This document shows positions 27,549 to 38,821 of a stretch of 64,000 nt of DNA, piece by piece (the stretch's first letter is position 1; each line of letters starts with the position of its first letter). A model generated the notes under the pieces. It made no database searches, was not told the origin of the DNA, and saw only the letters and a list, made by a program, of their open reading frames with translations. The stretch comes from Rhizobium sp. CC-YZS058 (GTDB lineage Bacteria > Pseudomonadota > Alphaproteobacteria > Rhizobiales > Rhizobiaceae). Location: assembly GCF_034720595.1 (NCBI RefSeq), contig NZ_JAYESJ010000001.1, positions 2,444,001 through 2,508,000 on the forward strand. The letters are read 5' to 3'. The translations under genes and the position numbers were made by a program.

Positions 27549-29309
27549 ATGACGACGATCAAGATCAGCAGCATGGCATCCACCGAGGCGTTCATCGCGT
27601 CCATCGGCGTCAACGGCCACGTCGAACAAGCTGGGTCTGCCTATGCCAATCCAAACAGCACTGTCTCCGCGATGAATTATCTCGGTGTCAGCTACCTGCG
27701 CAACCATTACGCCGAGACCAGTCTTGGGTTGAACAATATCAATGCTTTGGCAAATGCGGGCATCAAGTTCGATTTCGTTCCGATTCCTCACTGGATCGAA
27801 AAGACCGTGGATGTCGCAGCGTTCATCAAGGGCCTCGAAAAATTCGAGAAAGCGCACCCAGGCTCGATCGCCGCGATCGAAGGACCGAACGAGGTCAATA
27901 TCTACGCCGTGAATGTCAAGGGCGTGAAAACCATTGCCTCGGGCGCCGAGGTCCAGAAGCAGCTCTATGCTGCGATCAACAAGTCGTCTCTCTTGAAAGA
28001 CAAGGACATCTACAACGTCAGCCTCGGTTCGACCGATGCCAATCAATACAAGCAGTTGGGCAATCTCTCCGGTCACACCGACTTCGCCAACGCACATGCT
28101 TACGTGATGTCGACGACTACGATCTCGGCAGGGCTCGACTATCTCATCGGCTTTGCCAAAATCTCCGCGCCGAACAAGCCCGTGGTCATTACCGAGGCTG
28201 GATATACGACCCTCGACAATTACTGGTACAACGGTGTTTCCCACATCGTTCAGGCAAAATACACCTTGAACACGCTCGCCTCGGCCTTCGACAAGGGCGT
28301 TAGCAAGACCTATCTCTACGAGCTCTTCGATTTTCGGCCGGACCTCACTCCGGGCAGCGCGAACAGCCATTTCGGGTTGTTCAATGCCGATGGCACCCCC
28401 AAGCTCGCCGCGACCGCCATCCACAACATGACGACGATCCTCGCCAATGACAGCTCGCTAAAGGCTCCGGTGACGAATGCCTCGTTCACCTACTCGCTGA
28501 AGGGGATGCCGCTTAAAGGTCAGGACATGGTTCTGTCGAAAGGGAACGGGTCGGTCGATCTCATCGTCTGGTCGGAACCGACTCTCTGGAACCAGAACAC
28601 CAAGACAGGCGTGCTTGCTCCCACGACGACGGTCACTGTTACCTTCGGATCGGTCGAGAGCATCGTGTCCGTCTATGATCCGCTGCTCGGCAAGAACGCG
28701 ATCAAGACTTATTTCGGTGTGCGCGAGATCAAGGTCGATATATCCGACCATCCCCTGATCATTGAAACGACCGGCAAAAGCGCTGTCCCTGATAAGGCTG
28801 CCAGCGTCGGCGGGCATCTGGTGGGCGGCACGAGCGCTGATGTCATTCGCGGCCAGTCGTCTAAGGACGTCATCGTTGGCAATGACGGCTCGGACAAGCT
28901 CTACGGTGGGAACGGGAACGATATGATCTACGGCAACGCCGGGAAGGACCTTCTGCACGGCGGCATGGGCGCGGATAAGCTCTTCGGGGGTGCAGACGCC
29001 GATACCTTCCTCTTCAAGAACATCAAGGAAAGCACCGTCGCAGCCAGCGGTCGCGATACGATCTACGACTTCGAAAAGGGCGACCATATCGACCTGCGTG
29101 CGATCGATGCGAACTCGAAGGCTTCTGGCGATCAGGCCTTTGCTTTCATCGGGGACAAGGACTTCTCGGGCAAGCACGGGCAGCTGCGGTACGAAGCGGA
29201 CTCTTCGGGCGTCCAGGTCTACGGCGACGTCAATGGCGACGGAAAGGCCGATTTTGCCATCTATCTCAAGGATGTCGCCAAACTGGTCAGCGGGGATTTC
29301 TACCTCTGA
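27549..29309 (+). CDS. Glycoside hydrolase (clan GH-A type) with C-terminal RTX calcium-binding repeats
   Basis: A 586-residue predicted secreted glycosidase. The N-terminal barrel has the acid/base Glu115 (IEGPNE) and nucleophile Glu216 (VITEAGY) of GH39/GH5-like clan A enzymes. Residues about 420-490 hold RTX nonapeptides (GNDGSDKLYGGNGNDMIYG, GGMGADKLFGG), followed by a serralysin-type C-terminal region. There is no N-terminal signal peptide, so type I secretion through the C-terminus is expected, but no type I exporter is in the window. It is paralogous to 29926-31242. It probably trims the polysaccharide made here, as locus-encoded glycanases do. Confidence 0.85.
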   Translation: MTTIKISSMASTEAFIASIGVNGHVEQAGSAYANPNSTVSAMNYLGVSYLRNHYAETSLGLNNINALANAGIKFDFVPIPHWIEKTVDVAAFIKGLEKFEKAHPGSIAAIEGPNEVNIYAVNVKGVKTIASGAEVQKQLYAAINKSSLLKDKDIYNVSLGSTDANQYKQLGNLSGHTDFANAHAYVMSTTTISAGLDYLIGFAKISAPNKPVVITEAGYTTLDNYWYNGVSHIVQAKYTLNTLASAFDKGVSKTYLYELFDFRPDLTPGSANSHFGLFNADGTPKLAATAIHNMTTILANDSSLKAPVTNASFTYSLKGMPLKGQDMVLSKGNGSVDLIVWSEPTLWNQNTKTGVLAPTTTVTVTFGSVESIVSVYDPLLGKNAIKTYFGVREIKVDISDHPLIIETTGKSAVPDKAASVGGHLVGGTSADVIRGQSSKDVIVGNDGSDKLYGGNGNDMIYGNAGKDLLHGGMGADKLFGGADADTFLFKNIKESTVAASGRDTIYDFEKGDHIDLRAIDANSKASGDQAFAFIGDKDFSGKHGQLRYEADSSGVQVYGDVNGDGKADFAIYLKDVAKLVSGDFYL

Positions 29310-31314: not shown

Positions 31315-32433
31315 ATGACCGTTACATCTCAAGTCCAGCCGCCGTCGCGCGCTTCGAGACTCGAAAGCATCCAACTTCTTCGTGCCATCGCTGCAACGAT
31401 GGTTGTCATTCTACACGCCTCGATCGTCGTCTATCCGGAGGGCGGACTGCCCTTCATTCCGCGCTTCGGCGTGGGGGTCGACCTCTTCTTCGTCATCTCC
31501 GGCTTCGTCATCGTCTATTCGGCGCGGTCCCTGTTCGAGAAGCCCGGCGGCTGGCGGCGATTCCTCCTGCTTCGCATCATTCGCGTCGTCCCGCTCTACT
31601 GGATGGCATTGACGCTGCGCCTCGCCATGCTGGCAGCCGGTGCGCTTGCGGGGGTCAAGGCGTTTCCCGACGCCGTGGACATCCTGACCTCATATTTCTT
31701 CATTCCGCACGACAGCATGGGATACGGAGACGCCTACCCCTTCCCTATCCTCGACCTCGGCTGGTCGCTCAATTTCGAGATGTTCTTCTACCTCGTCTTC
31801 GCGTTCTTTCTAGCCCTGCCCATGCGGCGCGCGGTCTTCGCCTGCGGCCTTGTCATGGCGCTCGGAGTCGGCCTGGCGTTCGTCTTCCCTTTGCCCCTTC
31901 CCTTCGGGTTCTGGCTCCAGCCGATCATCCTCGAATTCGTTTCCGGGATGGCGCTTGCTCTGATTTACATGAGCGGCGTGCGGATCTCTCCTTGGGTCAG
32001 CGTTCTGCTTGTTGCCGCGGCCCTGTACATCTGGTTCGGTAACACCTTCAGCCAGTATGCTTCAGGCGAGGGACCGGGGTACTACGCCTTCCCAAGGTTC
32101 ATCGTCCTAGGAGGGGGCGCGATATGCCTCATGGCCGCAGCAACGCTCACCCGCGACCTCGACCTTCCCAAGCCGCTTCTGTCTCTCTCAACCCTTGGCG
32201 ACTCCTCTTACGCCTTGTACTTGCTGCATCCTTTCGTTCTGCTCGCCTTCAAGGCCATTCATGAGTACTTGCCGACGATTCCGACCTTGCAGCCGCTGAT
32301 CCTTGCTGCGATGGTGCTGGCAACGATCAGCTGTGCCCACGCATTTCACGTCCTCATCGAACGTCGTATCAACGCTAAGCTACGTGGTCTCACGGCTGTG
32401 CGCCAACCGTCCGCGGCGATGAAACAGTCCTAG
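31315..32433 (+). CDS. Membrane acyltransferase 3 family (ExoZ/OafA-like), copy 1
   Basis: A 372-residue protein with about ten transmembrane helices that is expected to add acetyl or another acyl group to the polysaccharide. The family start is clear: SIQLLRAIAATMVVILHAS with the catalytic-type His, then GVDLFFVISGFVIVYS. RIIRVVPLYWMAL and the C-terminal GDSSYALYLLHPF are also typical; LGWSLNFEMFFY resembles ExoZ. It follows the Tat glycosidase by 72 bases on the same strand, and ends a plus-strand group (two glycosidases and this gene). Confidence 0.9.
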   Translation: MTVTSQVQPPSRASRLESIQLLRAIAATMVVILHASIVVYPEGGLPFIPRFGVGVDLFFVISGFVIVYSARSLFEKPGGWRRFLLLRIIRVVPLYWMALTLRLAMLAAGALAGVKAFPDAVDILTSYFFIPHDSMGYGDAYPFPILDLGWSLNFEMFFYLVFAFFLALPMRRAVFACGLVMALGVGLAFVFPLPLPFGFWLQPIILEFVSGMALALIYMSGVRISPWVSVLLVAAALYIWFGNTFSQYASGEGPGYYAFPRFIVLGGGAICLMAAATLTRDLDLPKPLLSLSTLGDSSYALYLLHPFVLLAFKAIHEYLPTIPTLQPLILAAMVLATISCAHAFHVLIERRINAKLRGLTAVRQPSAAMKQS

Positions 32434-33090: not shown

Positions 33091-33378
33091 ATGTCTCTTC
33101 CCACCTTCCAGGCATTCTATCAGTCCGTTAAGGCTGGCTTCGCCTCCTTCGGCACCACCGTTACCGGCTTCACCTTCATCGGTGGCGGCACGTCTGTTGC
33201 CGTCATGTACAATGTCGGCGCCGGCCCGGTTCAGTCGTCGACCTTCTACCAGAACGTCAACTATGTCGGCGTTCCCGGTCCGGAACTTGCTGCCGGTCTA
33301 CCGATTCTTGCCGCTGCCATTGCCTACGGTTCTTACCGTGCAATCCGCAACGCGCGCTCAGCCAACAACGCTGCTTGA
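33091..33378 (+). CDS. Small exosortase substrate with VPGPE C-terminal sorting signal
   Basis: A 95-residue protein starting at ATG 33091, with AAGAGGAACAGG just upstream; the longer frame from 33016 lacks this. The C-terminus has the tripartite layout of PEP-CTERM-like sorting signals: VPGPE at residues 61-65, a hydrophobic helix at 66-82 (LAAGLPILAAAIAYG...) and an Arg-rich end (R83, R86, R89). The N-terminal 60 residues are Gly/Thr/Phe-rich with a hydrophobic stretch at about 16-40 that could be the export signal. The exosortase gene follows after 12 bases. It is expected to be cut near the motif and released or attached at the surface; its function is unknown. Confidence 0.8.
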   Translation: MSLPTFQAFYQSVKAGFASFGTTVTGFTFIGGGTSVAVMYNVGAGPVQSSTFYQNVNYVGVPGPELAAGLPILAAAIAYGSYRAIRNARSANNAA

Positions 33379-33390
33379 CGATTGCCGGGC

Positions 33391-34227
33391 ATGAGTTTGC
33401 TCTTGCCTTGGTTGAAGTCGTGGAAACGGTCGGAAGCAATTTCGGCCGTTTTCTTTCTGTGCTTCATGAATGGCGTCGCCACCCGGGCGTCTGCCTACGT
33501 GCATGAATTCGGCCTTTCTCCGGCGTTCATGAGCCTTTTCGGGATTAGCGCGCTCGTCCTCATCGCTTTCTATCTGGCGCTGCGCAATGTGCTGGCGGCA
33601 ACCCCACAGCCTCTGACAAGATCCGATCTCATCATCTTCTCCGCTATTCTCGCGCTGAACCTGATCGCGACACCGATTATCAGCTGGCTTTCGCTTACGT
33701 TTGTTGCGGCTCGCGAATATCTGCGGAGCAATCAGGATCCGCTTCTCAAGCGCGGCGCTGCCCTGATGATCGGCGCCACGGTGCCGATGTTCTGGGGGCG
33801 GCTCGTCTTCAGCCTGGCGAGCAGTGTTATTCTGAAAGCCGATGCGACTTTGGTTTCGCTGGTGACCGGAACAGCCAGGACGGGAAATGTCGTTGCTTTG
33901 CCGAACGGCGGCGGCTTTCTGTGGATTGCAGACGCCTGCTCCTCGTTCGGGAACATTTCCTTGGCGATGTTGTGCTGGCTGATGTTCATGGAGTATCGGG
34001 GCAGGCGCGAGCGCACACCCGCAGATTATATCACCTGTTTCTACGCCTGCCTGAATGTCGTCGTGATCAACATCACACGGATCTCGATCATCGCCGTCCG
34101 GCCCGACCTTTACAATCTCGTTCATGGTCCGTGGGGTGCCATGGTCGCGGGCTACCTTACCACTTTCGTCGTCATCCTGATTTGCTCATCCGGTATCAAG
34201 CGTGAACAACACCAACTCGCTGTCTAA
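33391..34227 (+). CDS. Exosortase (membrane transpeptidase for the adjacent CTERM protein)
   Basis: A 278-residue protein with about seven or eight transmembrane helices. The family catalytic residues are in place: Cys183 in IADACSSFGNIS (compare AEACSG), Arg230 in NVVVINITRISII (the NxxR helix) and His245 in LVHGPWGAM. Together these mark exosortases/archaeosortases, which cleave C-terminal sorting signals in the cytoplasmic membrane. It lacks a fused EpsI or protease domain. The start ATG at 33391 lies 12 bases after its presumed substrate, and its end overlaps the next gene by 26 bases. The subclass cannot be named from memory. Confidence 0.85.
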   Translation: MSLLLPWLKSWKRSEAISAVFFLCFMNGVATRASAYVHEFGLSPAFMSLFGISALVLIAFYLALRNVLAATPQPLTRSDLIIFSAILALNLIATPIISWLSLTFVAAREYLRSNQDPLLKRGAALMIGATVPMFWGRLVFSLASSVILKADATLVSLVTGTARTGNVVALPNGGGFLWIADACSSFGNISLAMLCWLMFMEYRGRRERTPADYITCFYACLNVVVINITRISIIAVRPDLYNLVHGPWGAMVAGYLTTFVVILICSSGIKREQHQLAV

Positions 34228-34672
34228 GATTGCAGTGGTTCTGCTGATAACCTTCGGGCTCGTCGCGCTGCGATGGCGCCCTGTGGAGGCCAACATCCAC
34301 TCGACGGAAGAGATTCACTCGACGGTGAAGCCGTTTCTCGACAAAAACGGCTTCACAATCACCCAGCAGACACAGGACCAGGTGACGGCGTCGAGCGGAT
34401 CGTGTGATGTCATCATCAAGGAGGTTGCGCCGGAGGGGTGGAACGAGTCGCAGATGATGGTGATGGCGGCGGGTCGCAATCTTCTTTTTGTGACGCGCGG
34501 ACAAGTCTATCCGGGCCAACAACCCGTGTGGAGGACTTGGTCCTATCTCCAATACTATCGTGTGATGACGAAGATAGGAATGCCGGTGTCCAAGGCCTTC
34601 GTCTTCGGCGTATCACCTTCCACGGGGTGTAACGCCGTCAACATCGACTGGGCTCAACTGACACCCGCTTAA
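34202..34672 (+). CDS. Exosortase-linked accessory membrane protein
   Basis: A 156-residue protein whose GTG start at 34202 lies 26 bases inside the exosortase gene, implying translational coupling. An N-terminal anchor (about residues 8-24) is followed by a periplasmic domain with two Cys (SGSCDVII and STGCNAV) that may form a disulfide, and the segments VTRGQVYPGQ and WSYLQYYRVM. It occupies the place of EpsI-type partners in other exosortase operons, but it lacks the HSPxxCLPG motif of EpsI, so I do not assign it to that family. A hairpin at 34672-34698 directly follows its stop. Confidence 0.7.
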   Translation: MNNTNSLSKIAVVLLITFGLVALRWRPVEANIHSTEEIHSTVKPFLDKNGFTITQQTQDQVTASSGSCDVIIKEVAPEGWNESQMMVMAAGRNLLFVTRGQVYPGQQPVWRTWSYLQYYRVMTKIGMPVSKAFVFGVSPSTGCNAVNIDWAQLTPA

Positions 34673-35104: not shown

Positions 35105-36046
35105 TTAAACGAATTGGCCTTTCCAGGTCGCGATTGCCTCAAGAGGCAGCGTGATGACCGGTACCGGGCTGCCATCGATCCACTCCCGCATGCGCTTGAA
35201 GTCTTTCCGATCCATAGTGGGTAGACCAGTATCTTTGGAAATTTCCGTTGCCCGGTTGTCCACCTTGACGATCAGCGCGCGACGAAACTTCTGCATCGCG
35301 CGGATACCACCATGCAGCCGTGTCCCCACAAAGTCGATATTATTCTTGTCGAGGAAGTCGTTGTAGGCGGCGAGCGTCGGGTTGATCTGCAAGATGCCCG
35401 GAATGCTCAGCTTCTGAAAGTACTCCATATCGGCGTGCTGCTGTGGCCAGAAGTAGACCCTCTCATAGCGCTCTTTGAGGATCCGCAGCATCTCACCATC
35501 TTCTTCCGGGCGGTTCAGATAATGCGTGAGCGTCGTGACGACGGCCGGCGCCTTGGTCGTCGGTATCTTAGCACAATGTTCAGGGTTGAGCTTCCACATC
35601 GTCGGGCAGGAGGTGTTGACCACCCTCTTGCCAAAGGAGCGCAGCTTTTCTTCGGTGTAGCTATCCCGAACCGAGTGGATCACCTCGGAGGAAAGGACTT
35701 TCTTCAAGAGCCAAGCCGAATATTTGTTCGGAGCCTTCATATAGTTCATCCAGCCGCAGCCGAGCAGGACTGCGTTGTTGAAGCTGTATGCGTCCCATGG
35801 GTAGAGCTTCCAGAGAACGCGTGCCTCCATGTTCGAGGCGAGAATGTTCGTTCCCGCGACAAACGCATACTGGCTTTTCTGGAGAAGGCTTTTCGATGCC
35901 TTCGTCATGTATTCATGCGTTGCGACGGTGTAGGGATATGCGTCGGGAAGGACCTCCAGGAGGACATCCTTGACGGCATCAACAATGATCTGGTCGCCGA
36001 GATTGTCCGAGGCTACCGTCGTATCCATAAGGGTGATTGTCTTCAT
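35105..36046 (-). CDS. Polysaccharide pyruvyl transferase family protein
   Basis: A 313-residue enzyme expected to add a pyruvate ketal from phosphoenolpyruvate to a sugar of the repeat unit. The N-terminus has the usual ASDNLGDQIIVDAV motif; the C-terminal half has FVGTRLHGGIRAMQ, the conserved RLHG block of WcaK/CsaB proteins, followed by ALIVKVDNRATEI. The ATG at 36046 opens the domain; the much longer frame upstream is the shadow of the flippase. It lies 14 bases after the flippase stop on the same strand. The pyruvylated sugar is unknown. Confidence 0.88.
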   Translation of the reverse strand: MKTITLMDTTVASDNLGDQIIVDAVKDVLLEVLPDAYPYTVATHEYMTKASKSLLQKSQYAFVAGTNILASNMEARVLWKLYPWDAYSFNNAVLLGCGWMNYMKAPNKYSAWLLKKVLSSEVIHSVRDSYTEEKLRSFGKRVVNTSCPTMWKLNPEHCAKIPTTKAPAVVTTLTHYLNRPEEDGEMLRILKERYERVYFWPQQHADMEYFQKLSIPGILQINPTLAAYNDFLDKNNIDFVGTRLHGGIRAMQKFRRALIVKVDNRATEISKDTGLPTMDRKDFKRMREWIDGSPVPVITLPLEAIATWKGQFV

Positions 36047-36060
36047 AATGCTATCCCCAA

Positions 36061-37536
36061 TTAAAGCGTCTTCGGTTTCAGTATTTTGAGAGCTTCGCTC
36101 GAGACACTGCGGACGATGTCCGGCATGAAGAGAAAGCTCCCACCAAGATAAACGATACCGCCGCTTGCGAGCAGGACGACGCAAAGGGCTGGATCCGGGA
36201 TTCGTCCTGCAACGGTCAGGTAGATGCCGTACACGATGGCGGCCATGCCCAGCGAGAGAAGAAGCGGCGGGCCAATCGCCGAGAAGATCCGCGAAGTGGA
36301 GACACCGGCGTCCGTGCGCATGATGCGGAGCGTCATAGGCCAGACGAGGTAGGTCCGCAACAGATGCGAGAATGTGACGGCGTAAAGTCCGAACGGCGCC
36401 GCCATCAGGCTGAGCGTTGTCCCGACCCCGACCTGGACCAACGAGATGTAGAAGTTCTGATCTGCGCGCTTGATGGCGGCCATCAGCGGCCACATGAAGG
36501 AACTGACCACGAAGGGGACCGCGGTCAGGCAGAGCAATTGCAGAACTGGCACAGCATCCGCCCAGTTCGGCCCGAAAACAACGGGAACCATCACCGGCGC
36601 AATGGCCGCCATCCCGAAGAAGCAGGGAAAGGCCAGAACTGATGAGAGGCGGATGAAGCCGAGATAGGCCTCGTCGACCCGACCGCCTTCCGCACCCGTT
36701 CGCGCGAAACTCGCCATAGCGACAGCGCCCAGCGGAATGACAGCAAGCTGGCTGACCAGATCGATGCAGCGCCAGGAAAGGCGAATATAGCCAACGGCGG
36801 CCGGTGTGAGAAACGCTGCCGCAATCAGCTCTTGTAGACGGACATTCAACCCGATCAGCAGATTGGCGCCGAAGACGCGGGAACCGAAGGTCCACTGGTC
36901 CTTTGCTAAGGCAGGCACGAACCGCATCTTGGGAACCCAGCCGAGGGTCACCCAGTTGAGGATGGCGGTTGCCAGGCTTGCAAGGACGCGCTGAGCGACC
37001 ATTGCCCAAACCCCCCATCCATAGACCGCAAGCAGAACCGAAATCCCGCCCGCAACGATATTTGCCGCGATCGCGCGCATTGCAAGCTGCTTGAAGGCGA
37101 AACTGCGCTGTAGCCGCGCCTCGTGAACCGCGCCAACCCCGCCGAAGACGAGCACCAGCGACAGGGTCATGAGCACCGGCCCAAGCTCCGGCATGGAAAA
37201 CAACTGGGCGATCGGCAGGGCGAGAAGGACGAGGATGATGCAGAGAAGGAACCCTCCTCCGGTCGACAGCCAGAACGCGGTATCGGCGAATTCCTCCTCG
37301 AGGACAGGACGTTGAATTACAGCCTCCGGAAGCCCGCCGCGCGAGACGATTAGAATGATATCGACGAAGACGCTGGCGACTGCGACGATGCCGAACTCGT
37401 CCGGCGTTAGAAGTCTTGCCAGCACCAGAAAGACAAGAAACGACAGGATAACGTTCCCGTACGTGCTGACCGCGCTCCAGAATGCTCCCACGACGGAGCG
37501 ACGCTCTAGCGGTGCGAATTTTCGATCGTTGCTCAA
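36061..37536 (-). CDS. Wzx-type lipid-linked oligosaccharide flippase
   Basis: A 491-residue protein with about fourteen hydrophobic helices of the polysaccharide transporter (PST/MOP) family. The signature start is VVGAFWSAVSTYGNVILSFLVFLVLARLLTPDEFGIVAVA, followed by GGLPEAVIQR. It flips undecaprenyl-diphosphate repeat units to the periplasm. The best start is a TTG at 37536 (encoding the Met before SNDRK), because no ATG lies near the beginning of the domain; this makes the N-terminus less certain. The pyruvyl transferase follows after 14 bases. It is the only flippase seen in the locus. Confidence 0.88.
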   Translation of the reverse strand: MSNDRKFAPLERRSVVGAFWSAVSTYGNVILSFLVFLVLARLLTPDEFGIVAVASVFVDIILIVSRGGLPEAVIQRPVLEEEFADTAFWLSTGGGFLLCIILVLLALPIAQLFSMPELGPVLMTLSLVLVFGGVGAVHEARLQRSFAFKQLAMRAIAANIVAGGISVLLAVYGWGVWAMVAQRVLASLATAILNWVTLGWVPKMRFVPALAKDQWTFGSRVFGANLLIGLNVRLQELIAAAFLTPAAVGYIRLSWRCIDLVSQLAVIPLGAVAMASFARTGAEGGRVDEAYLGFIRLSSVLAFPCFFGMAAIAPVMVPVVFGPNWADAVPVLQLLCLTAVPFVVSSFMWPLMAAIKRADQNFYISLVQVGVGTTLSLMAAPFGLYAVTFSHLLRTYLVWPMTLRIMRTDAGVSTSRIFSAIGPPLLLSLGMAAIVYGIYLTVAGRIPDPALCVVLLASGGIVYLGGSFLFMPDIVRSVSSEALKILKPKTL

Positions 37537-37735
37537 AGTGAACCCCGGCGTTGACCCATGGTGGGCTGGAAGGCGACGGACTGCGAAGACGCGGCCCATC
37601 GCCTCGCAATGTACGGTGAAGGGTGCGAAACCCGCATAAACCTTCGCTCGCGCGGCGAAAGGGACGGGCACCTTCCGCGACCAGTGTCGATCACCGCCGC
37701 GGTCACAGCTGATGCGCGTTCTACACAGACGTCCG

Positions 37736-38821
37736 TCATAGTGATCGCACCATGTGCGCTGTCTTCTGCGACGGCAAGCCGGTCGATGCGATGCCAAGCA
37801 AAGACCCGATGCGCAACCGTTGAGCAATAATGACAACGACGGACGGAACGAGCACGCCCGTTACAGTCAGCAGAACAAGCAGGACACCCGCCTGGTCGAT
37901 ATGAAACAGCCGTACGAGGACCGCTCGCGTGAAGCCGATGACCAGGATGTGCAGAACGAAGATACCCATGGAGCAAGCCCCGAGCATCTGAAGCCAGAAG
38001 TGAAGGCGTTCGAAAGAGCTTCGCTCGATGAGTGCGCCGGTGGCAAGGAACGCAGCTAATCCCAAGAAGGCGGCCGGCAGGGGCAGACGTTCGGGAACGC
38101 TCAACATAAAGCATCCGATCGCACCCCCCACATAGCACAGCATGAACGGCATCCACAGGCGGCCTGCCATCGAGATCAATCTTCTCACTCCGGCAAGACC
38201 GGTGACGCATCCGAGAAGGAAATAGAAGATGGCGTAGGTGACATCGTTCAAAACAGGAAGGTTCGGGAAGCGGAAACTCAGGAGAAACGCGGCAAAGCTC
38301 AGCGCGAGCGCGACCAGCATTCCCGCCCGACGAGGTGTGATCGAGCGGATGACGTAAGCGAACAGGTTTGCGAAGAACAGCGCATACAGGAACCAGAATG
38401 GAGAGAGCGGCGACCAGAGGATTTCGCCGAGCCTTGCCCAGGTCATACCACCATTCGTTGCGCCCGTACCAGAAATCATGACCTGGACGCTGCCTTGCAG
38501 GACCGACCATAAGAGATAGGGATAGACGATAGTCTTGGCACGCCCACTCCAGAACTTACCCGCACCCTTCTTCAAAGACTGCTCGAAGAACAGGCCGGAC
38601 AGGAAGAAGAAAACAGGCATGTGAGCGGCATAGATGACATAGTCGATCACGAAAAGGGGACTGCCAGCAGGGATCATCGCGGCGTTCACCAATCCTCTGA
38701 ACGCATGGCCGTAGACAACCAGCACGATGGCCAGCCCTTTGACGACATCGATGAATTCAACGCGGCGTTGACCTGCCAATGATGGTTGACGGGAAGCCTC
38801 TGTCGTGTTGGTCGACGACAT
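37736..38821 (-). CDS. Membrane acyltransferase 3 family, copy 2
   Basis: A 361-residue integral membrane protein with about ten helices. RRVEFIDVVKGLAIVLVVYGHAF has the family His; AAHMPVFFFLSGLFF and YPYLLWSVLQG follow the usual order. It resembles the smaller acetyltransferases that decorate exopolysaccharide. The ATG at 38821 (MSSTNTT) is preferred over an upstream start at 38863. It lies 199 bases upstream of the flippase on the same strand. The acyl group and acceptor are unknown. Confidence 0.88.
   Translation of the reverse strand: MSSTNTTEASRQPSLAGQRRVEFIDVVKGLAIVLVVYGHAFRGLVNAAMIPAGSPLFVIDYVIYAAHMPVFFFLSGLFFEQSLKKGAGKFWSGRAKTIVYPYLLWSVLQGSVQVMISGTGATNGGMTWARLGEILWSPLSPFWFLYALFFANLFAYVIRSITPRRAGMLVALALSFAAFLLSFRFPNLPVLNDVTYAIFYFLLGCVTGLAGVRRLISMAGRLWMPFMLCYVGGAIGCFMLSVPERLPLPAAFLGLAAFLATGALIERSSFERLHFWLQMLGACSMGIFVLHILVIGFTRAVLVRLFHIDQAGVLLVLLTVTGVLVPSVVVIIAQRLRIGSLLGIASTGLPSQKTAHMVRSL

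Follow-up and report, generated by a model that had tools for sequence, protein, structure and literature searches.

The window, a 64,000-nucleotide stretch of the genome of Rhizobium sp. CC-YZS058, carries three tightly packed forward-strand genes encoding a small candidate sorting substrate (S), a predicted exosortase (X), and a partner protein (Acc), and all three open reading frames were recovered where an earlier note, made from the sequence alone, had placed them. S starts at ATG 33091 and its stop codon ends at 33378; X starts at ATG 33391, leaving a gap of 12 bases with an in-frame TTG at 33382; and Acc starts at GTG 34202, confirming that it overlaps the end of X (34227) by 26 bases. 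The features of the cassette and its nearest context are as follows.

33091..33378, + strand: S, 95-aa candidate substrate with a C-terminal sorting tail (tail aligned with 25 others)
33112..33228, + strand: conserved, weakly hydrophobic N-terminal block of S, residues 8-46 (comparison with P0017 and hydropathy)
33271..33285, + strand: VPGPE motif of S, residues 61-65 (prolines invariant)
33286..33375, + strand: hydrophobic stretch and Arg-containing end of S, residues 66-95 (R83, R86, R89)
33391..34227, + strand: X, predicted exosortase, 278 aa (TIGR04178 score, homologues, structure model)
33937..33939, + strand: Cys183 codon of X, proposed nucleophile (invariant, 21/21)
34078..34080, + strand: Arg230 codon of X (invariant, 21/21)
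34123..34125, + strand: His245 codon of X (invariant, 21/21)
34202..34672, + strand: Acc, 156-aa partner with one N-terminal helix (overlaps X by 26 bases)
31315..32433, + strand: context, acyltransferase (Acyl_transf_3; family scan)
35105..36058, - strand: context, polysaccharide pyruvyl transferase (family scan)
36061..37836, - strand: context, polysaccharide flippase (Polysacc_synt_3; family scan)

Among the 10 neighbors of the cassette that were scanned, nine matched a family and eight were of polysaccharide or acyltransferase kind (a flippase, two Wzy_C proteins, the polysaccharide pyruvyl transferase, three acyltransferases, and a group 1 glycosyltransferase), so the exopolysaccharide (Wzx/Wzy) setting proposed earlier holds by family scan. 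The polysaccharide proteins of the window, some of which were labeled without a family scan, had matches in 11 of the 20 cassette regions examined, compared with three of the 20 controls (Fisher p = 0.019, with regions from related genomes that are not independent), while nine of the 20 cassette regions had no match to them. Matches were also found in five of nine regions from genome contigs, a set without controls. Thus, the association of the cassette with polysaccharide genes was recurrent (11/20 versus 3/20) but not universal. In addition, proteins with RTX calcium-binding repeats were observed near the cassette in the window (27549-29309) and in four of the nine genome-contig regions (L004, L007, L008, and L009), compared with 1 of 20 control regions and none of 20 other cassette regions; they are possibly companions of the cassette in some lineages.

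Properties of the enzyme, the tail, and the partner

Members of the exosortase/archaeosortase superfamily are polytopic proteins of about eight transmembrane helices, with an active site formed by a conserved Cys, Arg, and His/Arg triad. The residues Cys183, Arg230, and His245 that had been picked out in X, together with the ACSSFGN context (residues 182-188), were present, and the three residues were invariant in all 21 aligned exosortases, including P0014, which bears PF09721. A protein search with X yielded 12 proteins including X itself, the most distant of which bears PF09721. The hydropathy profile of X had seven peaks, and the structure model (pLDDT, 91.2) was nearly all helix, with short strands besides.

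Window X matched a single NCBIfam model, the generic exosortase/archaeosortase family TIGR04178, with an E value of 0.001; its score of 19.3 bits is below the curated cut-off of 23. Of the 10 relatives to which cut-offs were applied, 7 attained 23 bits (one of them displayed as exactly 23). X therefore does match an exosortase model, although only just for the window copy, and it is the relatives that make the assignment convincing. At an E value of ≤1, 20 of the 21 aligned members matched TIGR04178, and 2 of the 21 matched PF09721. A search of the Rhizobium genome itself with TIGR04178 returned nothing at an E value of ≤0.001, so the generic model alone would miss X. Moreover, window X had no meaningful family match in Pfam and no named Xrt, Art, or Crt subfamily among its NCBIfam release 20 matches at an E value of ≤10, and none of the 10 relatives came near the cut-off of a named exosortase subfamily (best, 28.3 bits versus 95); subfamily matches of the remaining members are known by counts, without cut-offs. 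Based on the TIGR04178 matches, the invariant Cys, Arg, and His, the homologues, and the helical model, X is, as judged from sequence, an exosortase by descent that belonged, in the tests made, to none of the subfamilies named in NCBIfam release 20.

The C-terminal part of S, comprising a motif, a hydrophobic helix, and a basic end, has a CTERM-type architecture. Both prolines of VPGP (P62 and P64) were unchanged across all 13 small proteins and all 26 tails aligned, and the 26-tail alignment gave a family motif of approximately [AVT]PxPxx[GA]xGL; the VPGPE sorting box noted earlier is thus present in S but is a local form of this wider motif. S matched no NCBIfam family at an E value of ≤10, including TIGR02595, and has a PGP and no PEP motif. 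PEP-CTERM proteins are described as always having an N-terminal signal peptide (PMC3237569). As judged by hydropathy, window S has no clear signal peptide, its first 50 residues being weakly hydrophobic (best 19-residue hydropathy, 1.12, from hydropathy only), while its relatives have, by eye, apparent signal peptides and often Gly-rich middles. Compared with P0017, S was identical at 36 of 39 positions in residues 8-46 and kept 5 of 12 residues in the loop (47-58), 13 of 13 in the motif region (59-71), and 11 of 24 at the end, and this block-wise conservation, in one comparison, suggests that the N-terminal block may be a working part, perhaps an anchor. In P0016, a near-identical S in another record, the frame changes just after VPGPELAA and the tail is lost; mutation, decay, and sequencing error are indistinguishable there.

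Acc was modeled as one N-terminal helix followed by an alpha/beta domain (pLDDT, 89.8), and C68, P77, P108, and C143 were invariant in a 27-member alignment. The statement that Acc lacks the EpsI motif was borne out, since hmmscan gave no EpsI match and hhalign against 11 EpsI (PF11984) sequences gave a probability of 0.3%; a PF11984 match was also absent from the Rhizobium genome. A single open frame of 483 codons holds both X and Acc in Microvirga ossetica, where two tail genes lie close by, and X and Acc are likewise joined in the fragment P0013. A subgroup of Acc proteins (L003, P0027, P0030, P0031, P0033, and P0034), which includes named records of Neorhizobium alkalisoli and Rhizobium puerariae, has no GWH motif and a different middle.

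Conservation of the cassette and number of tails per genome

The scan of genome contigs revealed 10 loci, in each of which X is preceded by a small PxP-tail gene and followed by an Acc gene, in Microvirga (four), Aquabacter (two), Mesorhizobium alhagi, a Falsiroseomonas MAG, an Alphaproteobacteria MAG, and a record titled with the cyanobacterial name Kaiparowitsia. Counting the Rhizobium genome itself and weak or distant matches, the X profile matched 16 of 394 genomes of the family, 17 of 397 of the order, and 9 of 385 of the class, and within the genus X was held by one of seven genomes. The locus survey comprised 47 loci (46 plus the window) after leaving out duplicates (L018, L019, and L029), the window's own copies (L001 and L017), four pieces of the broken X of G210, and the weak matches L048 and L049, and the family was defined as X at ≥180 bits. 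Acc was found in 35 of the 36 loci so defined, and a tail gene lay within 2.5 kb of X in 28 of 36 by profile, or 29 of 36 with L003, whose tail is at a contig edge; the other seven had no tail within 2.5 kb. The 11 loci with X below 180 bits, kept out of the family count, gave a best partner score of 20 bits and a best tail score of 17 bits. Thus, the order S-X-Acc recurs in distant genomes, and both the grouping and the pairing proved to be conserved.

The pairing is not strict. In Rhizobium sp. WL3, X and Acc (WP_147884957.1 and WP_147884958.1, both filed as "hypothetical protein") are flanked by glycosyltransferase and colanic-acid genes, and no recognizable tail was seen nearby there or beside the X and Acc of R. 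gallicum, two plasmid-borne cases that count against strict pairing. At G210:C4:685594-686534, X is broken up by a stop and by changes of frame, and a tail remnant precedes it, indicating that the system decays in some lineages. Tandem tails occur in two genomes (L026 and L027), and L008, L009, and L219 have a second tail gene, encoded on the other strand no more than about 2.6 kb from X. The cassettes of L008 and L009, one in the cyanobacterial-named record and one in an alphaproteobacterial MAG, are nearly identical, suggesting a mis-binned contig. X matches with one internal TGA were reported in the multi-tail genomes G615, G649, and G544 (L040, L041, L050, and L051).

Tails were searched genome-wide with a profile built from 26 tails, mostly ones beside X, so that counts of adjacency are favored. 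In the Rhizobium genome, exactly one tail matched at an E value of ≤0.1, namely, S itself (3.1e-9). At the same threshold, 27 of 28 chosen genomes matched (X holders, distant genomes, and the broken G210 included), as did 95 of 297 genomes in a sample of the order, mostly by partial matches, with up to 26 candidates scored per genome. At an E value of ≤1e-5, with the same number of candidates scored, tails were found in eight genomes of the order sample, all eight with X at ≥180 bits, and the best match beyond them (G457; 6.3e-5) was in a spurious-looking frame. G696 had no tail better than an E value of 0.09.

Counted at an E value of ≤1e-4 in 27 of the 28 chosen genomes (G210 left out), a single tail was found in 13, adjoining X in 12 of these, and two tails in five, both adjoining X in two genomes and one of them in three. 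G110 had four tails, one beside X; G544, G575, G615, and G649 had 20 together, one near an X; and four genomes had none, G1123 being counted as tail-less although a pattern search showed a tail beside its X. Tail proteins away from X were secreted-looking and mostly unlike each other, with the tail at the very C terminus. The description of the cassette as a one-substrate system therefore stands for the Rhizobium genome (one tail at an E value of ≤0.1) but not for the family, in which other genomes have up to six tails at ≤1e-4. The single tail of the Rhizobium genome, the conserved grouping, and the order sample together strongly support the core of the earlier proposal, namely, an exosortase whose dedicated substrate is encoded next to it and whose partner is not EpsI.

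Proposed function and comparison with known systems

S, X, and Acc are a real, conserved, and dedicated system with its own tail, its own partner, and an exosortase family without a name. We put at roughly 0.8 the probability that they form a self-contained, exosortase-type sorting system with their own tail and partner protein, and the best reading of the sequences is that X cleaves, and may transfer, its own substrate. Counting against this reading are the score of window X below the generic cut-off, the seven loci and the genome G696 with no good tail match, the two Rhizobium plasmids with X and Acc alone, the want of a clear signal peptide in S, and the bias of the tail profile toward adjacency. 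S, given the architecture of its tail, would be anchored in the inner membrane through the hydrophobic stretch and basic residues at its C terminus, and X would recognize the PxP motif at the membrane face. Following the exosortase/archaeosortase model, C183, aided by R230 and H245, would attack near PxP, removing the hydrophobic tail and forming a thioester between X and S, and the new C terminus of S might then either be released by hydrolysis or be joined to an amine of an acceptor, which could be an envelope lipid or the local polysaccharide. Acc, with its one-helix anchor and a presumably periplasmic domain, may act in a complex with X, to which it is linked and sometimes fused.

A polysaccharide role of the cassette is plausible, and we infer that the S peptide may be attached to polysaccharide; the earlier note would also allow it to assist in building the polymer. 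An unlikely elaboration would make S a carrier peptide, X exchanging the tail of S for a bond to the growing exopolysaccharide or to the lipid carrier of that polymer while the conserved N-terminal block stays in the membrane and Acc presents the acceptor; if true, this would yield a conjugate of peptide and polysaccharide tethered to the membrane, giving the cell a dedicated hold on its own polymer. Alternatively, the main task of X and Acc could be to help assemble or export polysaccharide, the molecule that they join or release being something other than S, with the tail protein as an optional client or regulator that is lost in some clusters. The polysaccharide clusters on two Rhizobium plasmids that hold X and Acc with no recognizable tail nearby, as well as the enrichment of polysaccharide genes near cassettes over controls, are in line with this, while the tracking of X by tails in the order sample and the nine cassette regions without matching polysaccharide proteins argue against it, and we consider it improbable.

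We give still less credence to the idea that the cassette is, in this genome, a relic or a recent arrival, out of use or not yet in use. The restriction of X to one genome of the genus, the frame-shifted tail of P0016, and the broken X of G210 would fit such a history; the window genes, however, are intact and tightly packed, and S is conserved block by block relative to P0017. That X is some other polytopic membrane protein with a coincidental motif is hardly credible: its score below the generic cut-off and the naming of the homologue P0004 as an antiporter subunit by one source speak for it, but X shares its invariant residues with the PF09721-bearing P0014, most of the relatives scanned with cut-offs reach the generic one, and X is codistributed with a tripartite tail.

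Among described systems, the PEP-CTERM/EpsH-EpsI (XrtA-type) system is similar in its polytopic enzyme, its C-terminal tail of motif, helix, and basic end, and a partner that is adjacent or fused, often amid polysaccharide genes (PMC1569441); EpsI adjoins or is fused to EpsH-type proteins (PMC1569441). The present system differs in having PxP without PEP, a partner without similarity to EpsI, no score near that required for a named subfamily, and one or few substrates in most genomes counted. By analogy, the pairing of Acc with X repeats the EpsI-EpsH plan with another protein, and the finding that Acc is not recognizably EpsI, yet sometimes shares an open frame with the enzyme, suggests repeated acquisition of such partners by exosortases.

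XrtG/Firmicu-CTERM is likewise a dedicated cassette of a tail protein, an exosortase, and associated genes, although these are two glycosyltransferases, in Lactobacillaceae (PMC12854382), and XrtG was not among the matches listed for window X or the relatives shown. Cyanoexosortase B (CrtB) has a partner encoded directly downstream, and a possible connection with polysaccharide secretion has been proposed for it (PMC12188702), but its tail differs from the S-type tail, and none of the Acc sequences scanned matched an NCBIfam family of CrtB-associated-protein kind. Archaeosortase A has an active-site Cys and a proposed transfer to a lipid amine (PMC7157517) but is archaeal, and the relatives of X scored weakly against ArtC, ArtD, and ArtE, far below the cut-offs. 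For rhombosortase/GlyGly-CTERM, enzyme and target are described as adjacent when there is a single target and apart otherwise (PMC3237569); the enzyme is an unrelated rhomboid serine protease, and the parallel is one of genome pattern only.

The triple of enzyme, tail, and partner has no name in NCBIfam release 20, as far as tested. A three-gene system with a 95-residue S as the sole client found in its genome offers a very simple setting in which to ask what bacterial exosortases join their substrates to.
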